Assembly (NCBI GenBank): GCA_018396865.1 | Contig: JAGTRB010000009.1 | Location: forward strand, 1 to 64,000 | Reading direction: 5' to 3' | Source of the DNA: Candidatus Bathyarchaeota archaeon | GTDB lineage: Archaea > Thermoproteota > Bathyarchaeia > TCS64 | Length of the DNA stretch: 64,000 nucleotides | In this document: positions 26,353-32,604 of the stretch, one piece after another | Position numbering within the stretch: position 1 is the first letter of the stretch | Layout: each line of letters opens with the position of its first letter | Program-made: the position numbers and the translations under genes | The notes under the pieces: model-generated | The model's input: only the letters and a program-made list of their open reading frames with translations | The model's database searches: none | What the model was told of the DNA's origin: nothing

Positions 26353-28428
26353 ATGCTGATCCGAGAGGTTATTCTGGAGAACTTCATGTCCTACGAGTAT
26401 GCAAGGGTTCCCCTAAAACCAGGTCTCAACATAGTTGTAGGCCCTAACGGCTCGGGGAAGTCGGCCTTCCTCCAAGCCATCTGCGTAGCCCTTGGGGAGA
26501 CCTACACTGAGCGCTCCAAAAGGCTTAGCGACCTAATAAGGTGGGGGGAGAAGAGAGCTCGGGTGAGCCTCCTCCTAGACAACTCCGTCAGGGAGGATGG
26601 CAGGAGGCCCATTCAACAATTCGACTCCGACGTGATCAGGATATCGAGAACCCTGAGGAGGGACGGCAGGTATAGCTTCCACATCAACCAGCGTGGGGCT
26701 CAGAAGCAGGAGGTTGTCGAGATCCTCAGGCGTCTAGGATTCGACCCGGAAAACATGCTGATAATAATGCATCAGAATATGGCCGAGATCTTCGCAGCCC
26801 TCTCCCCACAGGAGAGGCTGAGGAGGTTGGAGGAGGCCGTTGGATTCCAGTCCTTCAGGGCCGATGTCCTAGAGGCTAGGAGAAGGCTTAGCGGGATCCT
26901 AAGCGAGGAGGAGAGCCTCAGCCAGCTCCTTGAGAGGTCAAGAGAGACGCTGAACTACTGGAGGGAGCAGTACGAGAGGCTTCAAGAGAAGAAGAGGCTG
27001 CAGATACGCCTGAGCTTCCTGCAGAGGGAGATGGCGTGGAGCAGGGTCTCAGAGCTCGAGGGGGCGAGGAGGAGGCTTGAGGAGGAGGCCGAATCAGCAG
27101 TCGAGGCTCTAAAGAGGTGTGAGGAAGACCAGGAGCAGTACAACCTTCAGATCATAGAATCTAACCAGCGGCTTAAGGAGTTGAGGGGTATGCAGGCCGA
27201 GCTGATAGAGAAGAGGGTGAGATACGAGAGGGATCTAGGGGTCTACAGGTACGCAATAATGGAGGTAAAGGATCGAATAGCCGAGATCGATAGCATGATG
27301 AAGTCCTTTGGGGAGTGGAAGAAGGGCCTCGAGGAGAGCTTCAAGGAGCTAAGGGGGAGGCTGAAGGCAGGTGCAACCCTAGAGGACTACTTCAAGCTCT
27401 TCGAGGAGGTGGAGAGGAGGGAGACTGAGACCCACGAGAGTTGGATCTACGGGCTAAAGGGCAGGAGGGAGGAGGCTGAGAAGCAGCTGGCCTCACTGGA
27501 GGAGAGGCTTATAGAGGCTGAGGGGAAGGCAACCGCGGCCCTGGAGGGGTTGAGAAGGATAGAAGCCCTAATGGATGAGGCTGGCAACCGCTACATAGAG
27601 GCGAGGATCCAGGCGGCCCTCCTGAAGGAGCGAATGGAGGGTCTCAGGAGAAGGCTCGAAGCTCTAAGGGGAGAGGTTGAAAGGGTCTCTAAAAGCCTCA
27701 AGGAGGCTGAGGCTGAGGCCCTGATAAGAGGAGCCAGAATAGAGACCGGGAGATCCTCTGATGAGGTCATGAACGAGATCAGGAGGGTTGGGGGGATGCT
27801 CATAGCCATGGCAGACGTCCCAGAAGAGGCGGAGGCGATGTACGAATCTTACTCGAAGACATACAAGGAACTATTGGAGAAGGCTCAAAGGGTTAGAGAG
27901 AGCAGGGTCAAGGTGATGGAGGAGGTGGAGGAGAGGGTCAAGAAGTGGAGGGAGGTGACCAGAGGCCTAGTAGAAGAGGTTAACCTAAGGTTCCAGAGCC
28001 TCCTATCCCGCCTCCAAGCCAGGGGAGAGGTGAGGCTGACGAATGAGATGGATATAGAGGAGGCGGGCATTGACATATATGTGGGATTTAAGGGCGGGGA
28101 GATGAGGCTTCTAGACCCCTACACACAGAGCGGAGGGGAGAGAACCACCGCGGTTATGGCTTTCCTCCTCTCCCTACAGCAGAAGATCCTATCCCCATTC
28201 AGGGCTGTAGACGAGTTCGACCTCCATATGGATCCGAGGAACAGGGAGGTCGTCACCGAGTTCCTCTTCTCAACGTTGGAGGGCTCCTCAGACCAGTATC
28301 TGGTCATAACCCCGAGCCAACTTGTTTTGAAGGGTGGCAACTCACACATAATAATGGTCCATAAATCTGAGGGCTCATCAACGGTAAGTCTGGTGAAGGA
28401 GGATGAGGGAGAGGGAGGCCAGGTCTGA
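26353..28428 (+). CDS. Short-armed SMC ATPase with Smc5/6-type head motifs
   Basis: The 691-residue protein has the SMC head at both ends: Walker A GPNGSGKS (30-37), Q-loop MHQNMAEIF (Q141), coiled coils from ~165 to ~550, signature SGGER (593-597) and Walker B FRAVDE (616-621). The signature-to-D-loop stretch (QSGGER..., PFRAVDE, then MDPRN) and the following [10 protein letters not shown] match eukaryotic Smc5 closely and differ from canonical SMC and Rad50 (no Zn-hook CxxC). It is only about 60% of normal SMC length and I see no recognisable hinge domain. It overlaps the next gene by 26 bp. Confidence 0.85.
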
Positions 28429-29185
28429 GCTCCAGAGCGTGATCGACCTCTGCAGGGCAGCCTCGGGTGGGAGGCTAGACCCCTTCGCAGTTGATGCAGA
28501 CTACGTGCTCTCAGTGATCCGAAGATACTATCCGAACGTGAATTCTCTTGAAGACCTATGCCTCGACGCCACAGCCATAAGGGAGCTATCATCGGTTCTG
28601 GAGAGGCAGAACGAGTGGATCAGGCATCAATCAACCATCCTCTACAAAGACCCATTCATACTAACCCAGCAGCTCATGAGGATGGACCTAGCGGCTATAG
28701 TGGAGGCCTTCCTATCCTCCTGGCACCCCGTCGTAGAGCTCGAGCAGGTATCAGCCCCCACCCTCGCCCTCTCCCTGGCCTACTGGGGCAGCCTCCTCCC
28801 CATAAGCGAGAGGTTGGCTGAGATAGAGGTAGGAGAGACCGAGGCAGAAACGATGGGACGAGAGGAGGTAAAGGAGTTCATCTTAGACCAGAGCTTCTCA
28901 GAGAAGCTAGAGGCGATGTGGAAGGAGCTGTTGGAGAGGGCCGGTGAGGAGATGAGGGTAGACTACTGGGAGTGGTTGGACGGGGAGGCCTTCGAGGAGG
29001 CGTTGGAGAGGGCATACCTAACATGCTTCCTAATTGGCTACGGCTACGCGAGGATGGAGCTGGATAGGCTCCAGGAAAGGGTCGAGCTGATACCATACAG
29101 GGAGCCTAAGACAGACCTAGCCTCGAGGGCCTCCATCCCATTACTGATAGACCAGGAGGAGTGGATGAGATGGCGAGGAGGTTGA
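28403..29185 (+). CDS. SMC-associated protein with kleisin-like N-terminus
   Basis: The 260-residue acidic, helical protein overlaps the SMC gene by 26 bp and the next gene by 16-25 bp. The N-terminus [19 protein letters not shown] followed by [11 protein letters not shown] resembles the ScpA kleisin pattern (LxxLLxLIRxGxLDPWxIDI). A helix of the type that contacts the SMC neck would follow. The middle has [22 protein letters not shown] see no clear C-terminal winged helix by eye. Position and pattern suggest a kleisin bridging the SMC heads; this is inference. GGTGAAGGA lies upstream of the ATG. Confidence 0.6.
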
Positions 29186-29745
29186 AGGGGGCCCAAGAAG
29201 CCTACGCCAGAAAGGCGAGGGATGCTGCTAGGCTCCTCTTCTTCAAGCATCACACCCTCCCAGGGGTTAGGGGGTGGGAATTGAGGGAGGAGCTGGGCCC
29301 GGAGTGGCTTGAGGTGCTGGAGGTCTTAGACAGCCAGATAAAGGCCCTAGACCTGCAGGTAACGAGGGTCCTCGAGGAGCCCGAAACCACAGTTGAGCCA
29401 ACGAGGAAGCAGCTCGAGGAGGCCAGGTACTACATAACCCTTAGAGGGGAGATTGACAAGAAGGCCTTGAAGACGATTGGATGGAGGATCGACGACATAG
29501 CAGGCCTAGCCGTAGCCGTAGCATACATAATCTCGAGGCAGGGGAAGGCTCCCAGGAATGATGTTGAAAACATCCTCTCCGAGAAGCTTCCAGGATGGAA
29601 GGTTAAGGTGAACATTGATAGATACATCCAGGAAGGCTATCTAGGAGAGGAAGACGGCCTCCTATACTTGGATTGGAGGAGCAGGGCGGAGATAGACCAG
29701 AAGAAACTATTAGACCTAATACTTGCCTATGGGAGAAAGGAGTAG
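29170..29745 (+). CDS. MAGE/Nse3-like tandem winged-helix protein
   Basis: The 191-residue product (194 from GTG 29161) follows the MAGE-homology order. A first winged helix runs through [20 protein letters not shown], then a strand (YITLRGE), a hydrophobic helix ([19 protein letters not shown]), a second winged helix ([10 protein letters not shown]) and the closing [11 protein letters not shown] / [17 protein letters not shown]. The close parallels QEGYLEYR and WGPRAHAET-type C-terminus of human MAGE proteins. MAGE/Nse3 proteins are the KITE subunits of Smc5/6. GGAGGA at 29155-29160 favours ATG 29170. Confidence 0.6.
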
Positions 29746-30109: not shown

Positions 30110-31453
30110 GTGGATTTGCAGGGCTTGGTACACTTAAGATTCGAGAAGGGTGAGCTGATCGCTGAGGGCTTCTCCATACCCGGAGGGGTCTATGATAAGG
30201 ATATCCGAGCCTATCGAGCTCCCGCCTACCGCTATGGAGAACTCATCGATTATCTCAAAAGGTGGCACATCGATTATATAGATGAGGCCCTTAAGGCCCC
30301 AGACCCTATAGGCCTCTCCTCCCGCATCGTCCTCCGAGACTATCAGAGGAGGGCTCTCGAGGCCTGGATGGCCTCTGGGAGGAGGGGGATCATCATCCTA
30401 CCCACCGGATCCGGGAAGACCCAGATAGCTATAAAAGCCATTGAAATGCTTGGGGCCTCCACCCTCATAGTTGTCCCCACCCTCGTACTTGTGGAGCAGT
30501 GGCGTAGGAGGCTAGAGGAGGCTTTCAGTATCGAGATAGGGGTGGTGGGGGGAGGGAGGTATAAGATAAACCCCCTCACCGTGGCCACATACGAATCGGC
30601 AAGTATTAGGGCTGAGCATCTCGGGGACAGGTTCTTAATGCTCGTCTTCGACGAGGTCCACCATCTCTCCGCCCCCACCTTTAAAAGGATAGGTGAGATG
30701 TACCTCGCCCCCTATAGGATGGGGTTGACGGCGAGGCTTGGGAGGACAGGCCGCGGAGGCCTCGAGGCCTCAGAGCTGACTGGTGAGGTAGTCTTCGAGA
30801 TGGCGGTTGAAGACCTCGCGGGGGTGCACCTCTCGGACTACACGATCCACACCATCTATGTACCCTTATCGGAGCAGGAGGCCAGGGAGTATGAGGCCAA
30901 TTTCTCCATCTATAGAGAATACATAAGGAGAAGGGGAATGAGCATGAGAAGCCAGGATGACTTTCAGAGGTTCATCAGGCTGAGTGGATTCGACCCAGAG
31001 GCGAGGAGGGCCCTCCTGGCCAGGAACAAAGCTATGGAGGTTGCCCTGAACTCCGAGGAGAAGATCAGGCATCTTAAAAGGATTCTAGAGGAGAACCCCT
31101 GGGAGAAGGTGTTAATATTCACCCAGCATAACAGCCTCGTCTACAGGATAAGCAGGGAGATGCTCATCCCAGCCATAACCCACCAGACCCCTCAGAGGGA
31201 GAGGGAGGAGATCCTCGAGAGGTTCAAGTCAGGCCAATATATGAGGGTGGTTACAAGCAGGATCCTCGAGGAGGGAGTTGATGTGCCCGACGCCTCCGTG
31301 GCCATAATCCTAAGCGGGACCGGGAGCAGCAGGGAGTTCATCCAGCGACTGGGGAGGATCCTCAGGAAGAGGGAGGGGAAGCACGCCAGGCTCTATGAGC
31401 TCGTATCCAGGGGAACCGCTGAGGCCCGTCTAAGCAGGAGGAGGAAGGCTTGA
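30110..31453 (+). CDS. XPB-type SF2 DNA helicase
   Basis: The 447-residue protein has an N-terminal ~70-residue damage-recognition-like region, DYQRRALEAW (Q-like motif), Walker A LPTGSGKTQ (~97-105), DEVHHL (181-186), MGLTAR (motif III), and in the second RecA domain FTQHNS, TSRILEEGVDVP and QRLGRILRKREG (motif VI). It matches archaeal XPB, the 3'-5' helicase of nucleotide excision repair. The GTG start is ~5 nt after the predicted transcription start. Its stop overlaps the Bax1 gene by 4 bp, the known archaeal pairing. Confidence 0.92.
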   Translation: MDLQGLVHLRFEKGELIAEGFSIPGGVYDKDIRAYRAPAYRYGELIDYLKRWHIDYIDEALKAPDPIGLSSRIVLRDYQRRALEAWMASGRRGIIILPTGSGKTQIAIKAIEMLGASTLIVVPTLVLVEQWRRRLEEAFSIEIGVVGGGRYKINPLTVATYESASIRAEHLGDRFLMLVFDEVHHLSAPTFKRIGEMYLAPYRMGLTARLGRTGRGGLEASELTGEVVFEMAVEDLAGVHLSDYTIHTIYVPLSEQEAREYEANFSIYREYIRRRGMSMRSQDDFQRFIRLSGFDPEARRALLARNKAMEVALNSEEKIRHLKRILEENPWEKVLIFTQHNSLVYRISREMLIPAITHQTPQREREEILERFKSGQYMRVVTSRILEEGVDVPDASVAIILSGTGSSREFIQRLGRILRKREGKHARLYELVSRGTAEARLSRRRKA

Positions 31454-32604
31454 TCCTGCCCCCCGAGCTTCTACGGACGAAGATAATCGGAGGCTCGGTA
31501 AGGCTCATCTACGCTGGGGAGGAGGCTCTCAGCCTTGCGAGAACACTCACAGCTGTATTTGAGGAGGCCACGGAGAAGACCAGGAGGGAGCTTCAGGAGG
31601 GAATTAGGAGATGCGAGGAGCTCGGATACGACTACAGGCTCGTGAGGGGCCTCGCCTCCATCCTTGAGGAGTTCTGCACCTTCCAGACTAGAGCCTTAGT
31701 TGAACCAGAGGTGGCCAGGAGGACGGTCTTCGAGGAGGCTGGGATAGAGCCTATCACCACCGATGAGCAGAGGTCTAGAGTTCTCAAGAGGGCTGCTGAA
31801 AGGCTCAGGGTCTCCCCCAAGGACTTAGAGGAGAGTCTTTACGCAGATCTATGGGAAGAACAGATTCTAGCCGCGTTCGAGCCTCCTGAGCCCCTTGAGC
31901 TTCTTAGGAGCTACAACTTCTCCCTAACCCTGACACTACTAGCCCAGGCCAGAAGGATAGAGGCGAGATTCAGGGGGGAGGATGAAGGCCTTATGCCCAT
32001 TGGAAAGAGTTTGGGCACCTGTCTGATGAAAGGAGAAGGAGAGGCGTCCGTAGTAGTGGTTGAACCAAGCTCTGCCAGGTCTGGAAGGAAAGCCTACGAG
32101 CTCGAGGCCTTCCTATCTCGTATTATGCTCCAGGAAAGATGGAGGATAACTGCTGAGGTGGAGCATCCACCCGGGTCAAAGCTTAGAAGGTTCGAGGTGT
32201 TTCAGGAAATCCATGGAAAGATGATAACACCAAGAAATCTCAAGGGGAGACCCGACCAACAGAGGAATCCTCATAGGTTTGAAGGCCACTGGGAAGAGGG
32301 GATAGTGGTCATTCAAGACTTCGCCTCCAGACTTGGACTAACCGAGGAAGAGGCGAAGAGGAGGCTGAGGGAGAGAAATAAGAGTTACATTGATATCGGA
32401 GGGATCTATATAACGCGGGAGAAACTGGATATATTGAGGTCATACTTAGGATGCTATCAGAACCCGAACCTCTCCGATGCTATCTCATTTTTGAGGAGGC
32501 TGGGATGCAGGAGGCCAATTCAGGTCTTAGAGGCCCTTGGTTACACGGTGGAATGGGGTGAGAACCTCAAGGACGGCAGGGTCTACAAACCTGGAAAGAG
32601 ATGA
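31450..32604 (+). CDS. Bax1-like nuclease (DUF790), partner of XPB
   Basis: The 384-residue protein matches the DUF790 family: N-terminal LPPELLRTKIIGGSVRLIY, a helical domain (RGLASILEEFCTF), then the segment ESLYADLWEEQILAAF and RSYNFSLTLTLLAQA. Bax1 binds archaeal XPB and nicks 3' of lesions or bubbles through a PD-(D/E)XK-like site. The start TTG/ATG overlaps the XPB stop by 4 bp, so translation is coupled. The C-terminal ~120 residues look helical, and a Trp/Glu-rich piece is less familiar. Confidence 0.85.
   Translation: MILPPELLRTKIIGGSVRLIYAGEEALSLARTLTAVFEEATEKTRRELQEGIRRCEELGYDYRLVRGLASILEEFCTFQTRALVEPEVARRTVFEEAGIEPITTDEQRSRVLKRAAERLRVSPKDLEESLYADLWEEQILAAFEPPEPLELLRSYNFSLTLTLLAQARRIEARFRGEDEGLMPIGKSLGTCLMKGEGEASVVVVEPSSARSGRKAYELEAFLSRIMLQERWRITAEVEHPPGSKLRRFEVFQEIHGKMITPRNLKGRPDQQRNPHRFEGHWEEGIVVIQDFASRLGLTEEEAKRRLRERNKSYIDIGGIYITREKLDILRSYLGCYQNPNLSDAISFLRRLGCRRPIQVLEALGYTVEWGENLKDGRVYKPGKR

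Follow-up and report, generated by a model that had tools for sequence, protein, structure and literature searches.

We analyzed a window of 64,000 nucleotides, the first part of a contig (JAGTRB010000009.1; G000:C9 below) from a Candidatus Bathyarchaeota archaeon whose 1.83-Mb genome assembly (GCA_018396865.1) is approximately 97% complete. Three forward-strand genes overlap here, encoding a short SMC-type ATPase, a candidate kleisin, and a candidate KITE protein. The middle ORF (28403-29185) begins with ATG, ends with TGA, and encodes 260 amino acids; it shares 26 bp with the end of the SMC-type ORF (26353-28428) and 25 bp with the start of the third ORF (29161-29745), in agreement with a first-pass annotation that had placed a kleisin gene between, and overlapping, both of its neighbors. 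The features of the locus are as follows.

26353..28428, +, short SMC-type ATPase of 691 aa with one half of the head at either end and a single antiparallel coiled coil (Pfam SMC_N 5e-36, phmmer, profile A4)
26440..26463, +, Walker A motif GPNGSGKS (sequence; pattern in 66 of 68 nonredundant relatives)
27364..27387, +, tip of the coiled coil, predicted to form a hairpin turn (residues 338 to 345) where a hinge would be expected (L172 model via alignment A5)
28129..28143, +, ABC signature SGGER (sequence; 68 of 68 relatives)
28207..28215, +, Walker B motif VDE (sequence comparison with SMC5/6 and canonical SMC)
28403..29185, +, putative Nse4-type kleisin, 260 aa (profile against the PDB, Pfam Nse4_C in the family, fold matches)
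28409..28639, +, predicted kleisin N-terminal domain, residues 3 to 79, three helices with a long third (L185 model mapped to the window; 6ivh alignment)
28652..28792, +, predicted middle helices and linker, residues 84 to 130 (L185 model helices mapped)
28886..29095, +, predicted kleisin C-terminal winged helix, residues 162 to 231 (fold matches)
29161..29745, +, candidate MAGE/Nse1/Nse3-like KITE (tandem winged-helix) protein, 194 aa, no RING (fold; weak Pfam matches)
29215..29442, +, predicted first winged helix of the KITE, residues 19 to 94 (model elements mapped)
29458..29670, +, predicted second winged helix of the KITE, residues 100 to 170 (model elements mapped)

The middle ORF is a genuine gene: homologues without internal stops were present in 55 of 61 related genomes, including 26 of the 29 of better quality, and residues P27, D55, Q69, P109, W128, and S244 were invariant among 34 aligned sequences.

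The ATPase belongs to a set of short SMC proteins (572 to 699 aa; 68 nonredundant sequences) that have retained the Walker A, signature, and Walker B motifs. When it was compared with PDB sequences by phmmer, the window protein matched yeast SMC5 (4e-33) and human SMC6 (7e-30) ahead of Smc, and the profile of the short SMCs likewise had SMC5 (4e-67) and SMC6 (9e-63) as its best matches. SMC5/6 proteins scored 177 to 230 bits with this profile (yeast SMC5, 230), SMC2 scored 129 to 153, and SMC3 scored 111 to 138; canonical archaeal SMCs, at 184 to 245 bits, were about level with yeast SMC5, so that the closeness to SMC5/6 is relative to eukaryotic SMC1 to SMC4 only and bit scores are not decisive. 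The canonical SMC that this genome also encodes matched Smc first and also SMC1 to SMC4, with no SMC5/6 match at an E value of ≤1e-20. The Walker B region of the short SMC resembles those of SMC5/6 (PFRVVDE and PFRCLDE, sharing PFR..DE) rather than the PFY..DEID of the genome's canonical SMC, and the signature region is like those of SMC5 (LDSHTQSGGER...PFRVVDEINQGMD) and SMC6 (PFRCLDEFDVYMD), in contrast to PFY..DEIDAHLD in canonical archaeal SMCs. By these sequence comparisons, the window ATPase is, among eukaryotic SMCs, closest to SMC5 and SMC6. An archaeal clade of “SMC5/6-related SMC” proteins has been grouped with SMC5 and SMC6 in trees (Yoshinaga, Nakayama, and Inagaki 2022, PMC9389158), and the window ATPase probably belongs to it.

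Neither a hinge nor a zinc hook was found in the short SMCs. The Pfam SMC_hinge model gave no match at an E value of ≤10 in four of them (the canonical SMC gives 2e-16), and the CxxC of the zinc hook was absent from all 68 nonredundant sequences. A model of the SMC and kleisin genes of relative L172, read through as one chain, has a single antiparallel coiled coil that folds back through a turn of eight residues (337 to 344), where the pLDDT is about 60; the length of this turn differs among relatives.

The kleisin call of the first-pass annotation was borne out by sequence profiles, fold matches, and conserved gene order, but the closest relative turned out to be Nse4 of SMC5/6 and not ScpA. 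A profile of 34 family members matched yeast Nse4 (2e-5) and human EID3, or Nse4B (3e-4), among PDB sequences, and with 85 members these E values were 1.7e-6 and 2.8e-4. The larger profile also gave weak matches to ScpA in the right order, with the N-terminal domain (6ivh) at 0.043 over profile positions 8 to 76 and the C-terminal domain at 0.025 to 0.032 over positions 169 to 237. Pfam Nse4_C (PF08743) matched 65 of the 85 members (best E value, 5.6e-9), and the next most frequent family matched four. A blind scan of 61 genomes with Nse4_C gave matches in 34, the middle gene's locus took the top place in 33 of these, and two members exceeded the curated cutoff. The window's own protein had no match in single-sequence scans against Pfam, NCBIfam, and PADLOC, and its assignment to Nse4 therefore rests on its family. 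Pfam SMC_ScpA (PF02616) did not match the locus in any of 12 genomes, finding the canonical ScpA genes instead, and ScpA was absent from all 16 Pfam families listed for the 34 members. Profile-profile comparison (hhalign) with the ScpA proteins of the same genomes did give an E value of 2.1e-5 (probability, 77), with colinear domains.

The N-terminal stretch that had been quoted as an ScpA-type pattern is present literally in the translation, yet it carries no ScpA signature motif; its counterpart in an alignment with archaeal ScpA is the “xPWxI” turn. Among the proposed key residues G-R-L-D-P-F, conservation across the family extends only to P27 and F28 and not to G, R, or L. Helical similarity to kleisin N-terminal domains was nonetheless recovered, with three helices in the L185 model (residues 4 to 26, 37 to 50, and 54 to 84) and the colinear 6ivh match; the N-domain assignment is weak by sequence. 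Taken as a whole, sequence and model comparisons support the kleisin plan of an N-terminal helical domain, a linker, and a C-terminal winged helix for the middle protein.

The kleisin-KITE pair was modeled with AlphaFold from the adjoining same-frame genes of relative L185, with the intervening stop codon read as G. Such read-through models (pTM, 0.47 to 0.49) are a way to place two subunits in one chain and imply no claim of gene fusion; the alignment used here (A9) was anchored by natural same-frame gene pairs. The model (mean pLDDT, 79; pTM, 0.49) runs from the three-helix N-terminal domain through middle helices and a C-terminal winged helix to the two winged helices of the KITE. When it was compared with the PDB by Foldseek, ranks 1 and 3 were Nse4, and ranks 2 and 4 were MAGE-G1/NSE1 chains (5hvq), in keeping with the earlier description of the third gene as MAGE-like. 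With VIA-align, the C-terminal domain of the kleisin matched Nse4-C with a Z score of 9.9 (97 aligned residues; rmsd, 2.4), ScpA-C with 9.2, and Scc1-C with 7.6, and the KITE matched chain C of the Nse1-Nse3-Nse4 complex 7dg2 with 11.7 and ScpB with 9.1. Unrelated winged-helix regulators reached Z scores of 7 to 8.4, so the fold margin is modest, though the top ranks are consistent.

By sequence, the identity of the KITE is marginal. Pfam MAGE matched 6 of 58 members (best E value, 2.8e-4) and SMC_Nse1 matched 5 of 58 (best E value, 0.015), these being the two commonest families; KITE profiles had no credible match among PDB sequences, and with archaeal ScpB hhalign gave a probability of 7, a weak match. 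The call consequently rests on the fold together with the weak Pfam matches, and because the fold ranks and the commonest Pfam families point the same way, the third protein is best read as a KITE.

The middle gene and the KITE gene are distributed together. Profile searches of 397 Thermoproteota genomes found the former in 158 and the latter in 159, with both in 157 of approximately 160 positive genomes; the single genome with the middle gene only (G043) is accounted for by a contig end, and the KITE gene stands alone in two. In a set of 40 loci, the SMC-kleisin-KITE order was kept as far as the contigs extended, and nearly all loci in a set of 130 kept it too. Among the exceptions were L246, with the SMC gene on the opposite strand; L254 and L258, where it does not adjoin the pair and lies approximately 8 to 11 kb off; and L263 and L181, where an upstream SMC ORF was not found. 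The ATPase-kleisin-KITE order proposed for the window thus recurs in nearly every locus read, in Bathyarchaeia as well as in other Thermoproteota. Each operon has one SMC gene, and clustering of neighboring genes revealed no fourth conserved member and, among the clustered loci, no other conserved neighbor of the trio, nucleases included; no second KITE or RING was present in the operon. Two kleisin-KITE pairs occur in the single-contig genome G429 (G429:C1:446893 and G429:C1:955461) and in some named bins (L155/L173 and L175/L180), where a heterodimer of SMC paralogues is therefore conceivable.

A canonical SMC-ScpA-ScpB operon (L124) lies outside the window on the same contig (G000:C9:85369-90284) and encodes a hinge-bearing SMC of 1,188 aa; a second ScpB-like gene is located at G000:C7:13888-14325. 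A search for the hinge in 23 genomes, all of which carry the middle gene, gave no match in 11, of which two (G074 and G131) have a long SMC after all. For the other nine, which are 91 to 99% complete (G066, G112, G154, G160, G255, G279, G361, G387, and G431), the best SMC match was the short SMC, whether the query was the Pfam model or the canonical protein. Sequence search detected no full SMC in these nine other than the short one, and a very divergent second SMC there is possible.

The product of the gene at 28403-29185 is very probably an Nse4-type kleisin that belongs to a compact SMC complex, the second in this genome, together with a short SMC ATPase and a KITE resembling MAGE, Nse1, and Nse3. 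The subunit families, predicted folds, and conserved three-gene order documented above, from sequence comparison and models, all point to this reading. An unlikely alternative is that the middle protein is a ScpA-type kleisin that has diverged but serves an ordinary archaeal Smc-ScpAB complex, without any particular relation to SMC5/6. The hhalign E value with archaeal ScpA, the weak PDB matches to both ScpA domains, and a ScpA-C fold score tied with that of Nse4 speak for it, but the genome has its canonical operon elsewhere, Nse4_C matches the family while Pfam ScpA never does at this locus, and the SMC and KITE partners likewise point toward SMC5/6. We consider it decidedly improbable that the short SMC arose by hinge loss and that the complex, instead of working independently, is a relict or regulates the canonical SMC: although the hinge was not found and canonical SMC-ScpAB coexists in the window genome, many families have kept the full set of ATPase motifs and the three genes together, and nine genomes of the phylum have no other full SMC that was detected.

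Least credible is an antiplasmid or antiphage role for the trio as a Wadjet- or Lamassu-like system with its own kleisin and KITE. Short coiled-coil ATPases are common in defense systems, JetABC KITE chains appear among the lower fold matches, and the SMC draws generic PADLOC matches. On the other hand, PADLOC has no match for the kleisin or the KITE, no match was found on 72,556 plasmid records, and the trio lacks a conserved nuclease neighbor (no fourth gene is conserved next to it, and hence no JetD nuclease as in Wadjet JetABCD); presence in nearly all good-quality related genomes is the behavior of a core gene and is not patchy. Near-universal presence, absence from plasmid records, and lack of nuclease partners favor chromosome maintenance over defense, and together with the lineages in which the short SMC is the sole full SMC detected, they suggest a core chromosome-maintenance machine and not a defense accessory.

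The compact complex at this locus is probably a homodimeric, SMC5/6-like SMC-kleisin-KITE complex. It resembles SMC5/6 (Smc5, Smc6, the kleisin Nse4, and the KITEs Nse1 and Nse3) in its subunit classes, in the Nse4-family C-terminal domain of its kleisin, and in the predicted MAGE/Nse1-like fold of its KITE, and SMC5/6 is the eukaryotic complex whose SMCs score nearest to the operon's. It differs in having one SMC gene, with a homodimer expected in place of two different hinge-bearing SMCs, in its single KITE gene without a RING, and in a short coiled coil with no detected hinge; partners such as Nse2, Nse5, and Nse6 were not seen next to the operon. Smc-ScpA-ScpB shares the gene order and domain plan, and ScpA and ScpB domains are among the fold matches of the operon, but it is encoded separately with a hinge-bearing SMC, and the ScpA family model misses the middle protein. 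The ASRPs, coalescin ClsN, and Sph (PMC9389158) are also archaeal short SMC-superfamily ATPases; ASRPs, however, carry a zinc hook, and the NCBIfam ASRP model scored the window SMC at 79.8 against a cutoff of 300. A hinge-less SMC reported from marine Actinobacteria as distinct from Rad50/SbcC (PMC12153180, 2025) is similar in lacking a hinge, but those are bacterial environmental sequences, and no kleisin is mentioned for them.

If the complex works as SMC5/6 and Smc-ScpAB do, a pair of short SMC molecules would associate through their ATP-binding heads. The kleisin would be expected to contact the neck of one molecule with its N-terminal helices and to cap the head of the other with its C-terminal winged helix. 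The kleisin linker would carry one or two copies of the KITE that help grip DNA, with residues 84 to 130 the expected KITE-binding segment, as in Nse4 and ScpA. ATP binding and hydrolysis might then open and close a clamp on DNA, serving chromosome organization or repair. The far end of the ring might be held directly by the coiled-coil tips or might be open, and since neither hinge nor zinc hook was found, the complex may be a DNA clamp or a short-arm translocator rather than a large ring.

The hinge is usually regarded as essential to SMC ring closure, so that its apparent absence here is relevant to the working of SMC motors. Where SMC5/6 and its KITE subunits originated is a standing question, and the locus offers a prokaryotic relative through which both that origin and the minimal design of the complex can be tested; if the reading is correct, a three-gene version with an Nse4-type kleisin would be a minimal SMC5/6 for biochemistry. 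Archaeal SMC5/6-related SMCs were already known (PMC9389158), but that study does not mention kleisins and describes no kleisin or KITE partner for them, and the open-access papers that we searched (subscription papers and preprints excluded) yielded no account of such partners, nor of the hinge-less design. Two published generalizations do not fit the locus: the conclusion of a 2020 survey that a KITE is generally missing from the Smc complexes of archaea (PMC7055376) and the statement of a 2025 paper that Thermoproteota have no SMC complexes (PMC12153180). We tentatively entertain, as a real but less than even prospect, the broader idea that a hinge-less SMC-kleisin-KITE complex sharing an ancestor with SMC5/6 belongs to the core machinery of many Thermoproteota and is in some lineages the one SMC complex present, that SMC5/6 with its Nse4 and MAGE/Nse1 KITEs is an archaeal inheritance, and that hinges are dispensable for a kleisin-closed SMC.

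The surroundings of the operon offer some further observations. Approximately 365 bp downstream of it in the window (30110-32604, +), a gene for an XPB-type helicase is followed, with a 4-bp overlap, by one for a Bax1-type endonuclease (DUF790); this pair adjoined the operon in 1 of 20 loci, that of G001 (L031), a congener in which each of the two genes is split into several ORFs. Among the flanks read (L031 to L050 and L135 to L214), genes resembling those for RNA polymerase A', L30e, and NusA were near the operon in approximately 20 loci, and an Lhr-like helicase gene was near it in 14 loci, all of these names having been assigned by eye.
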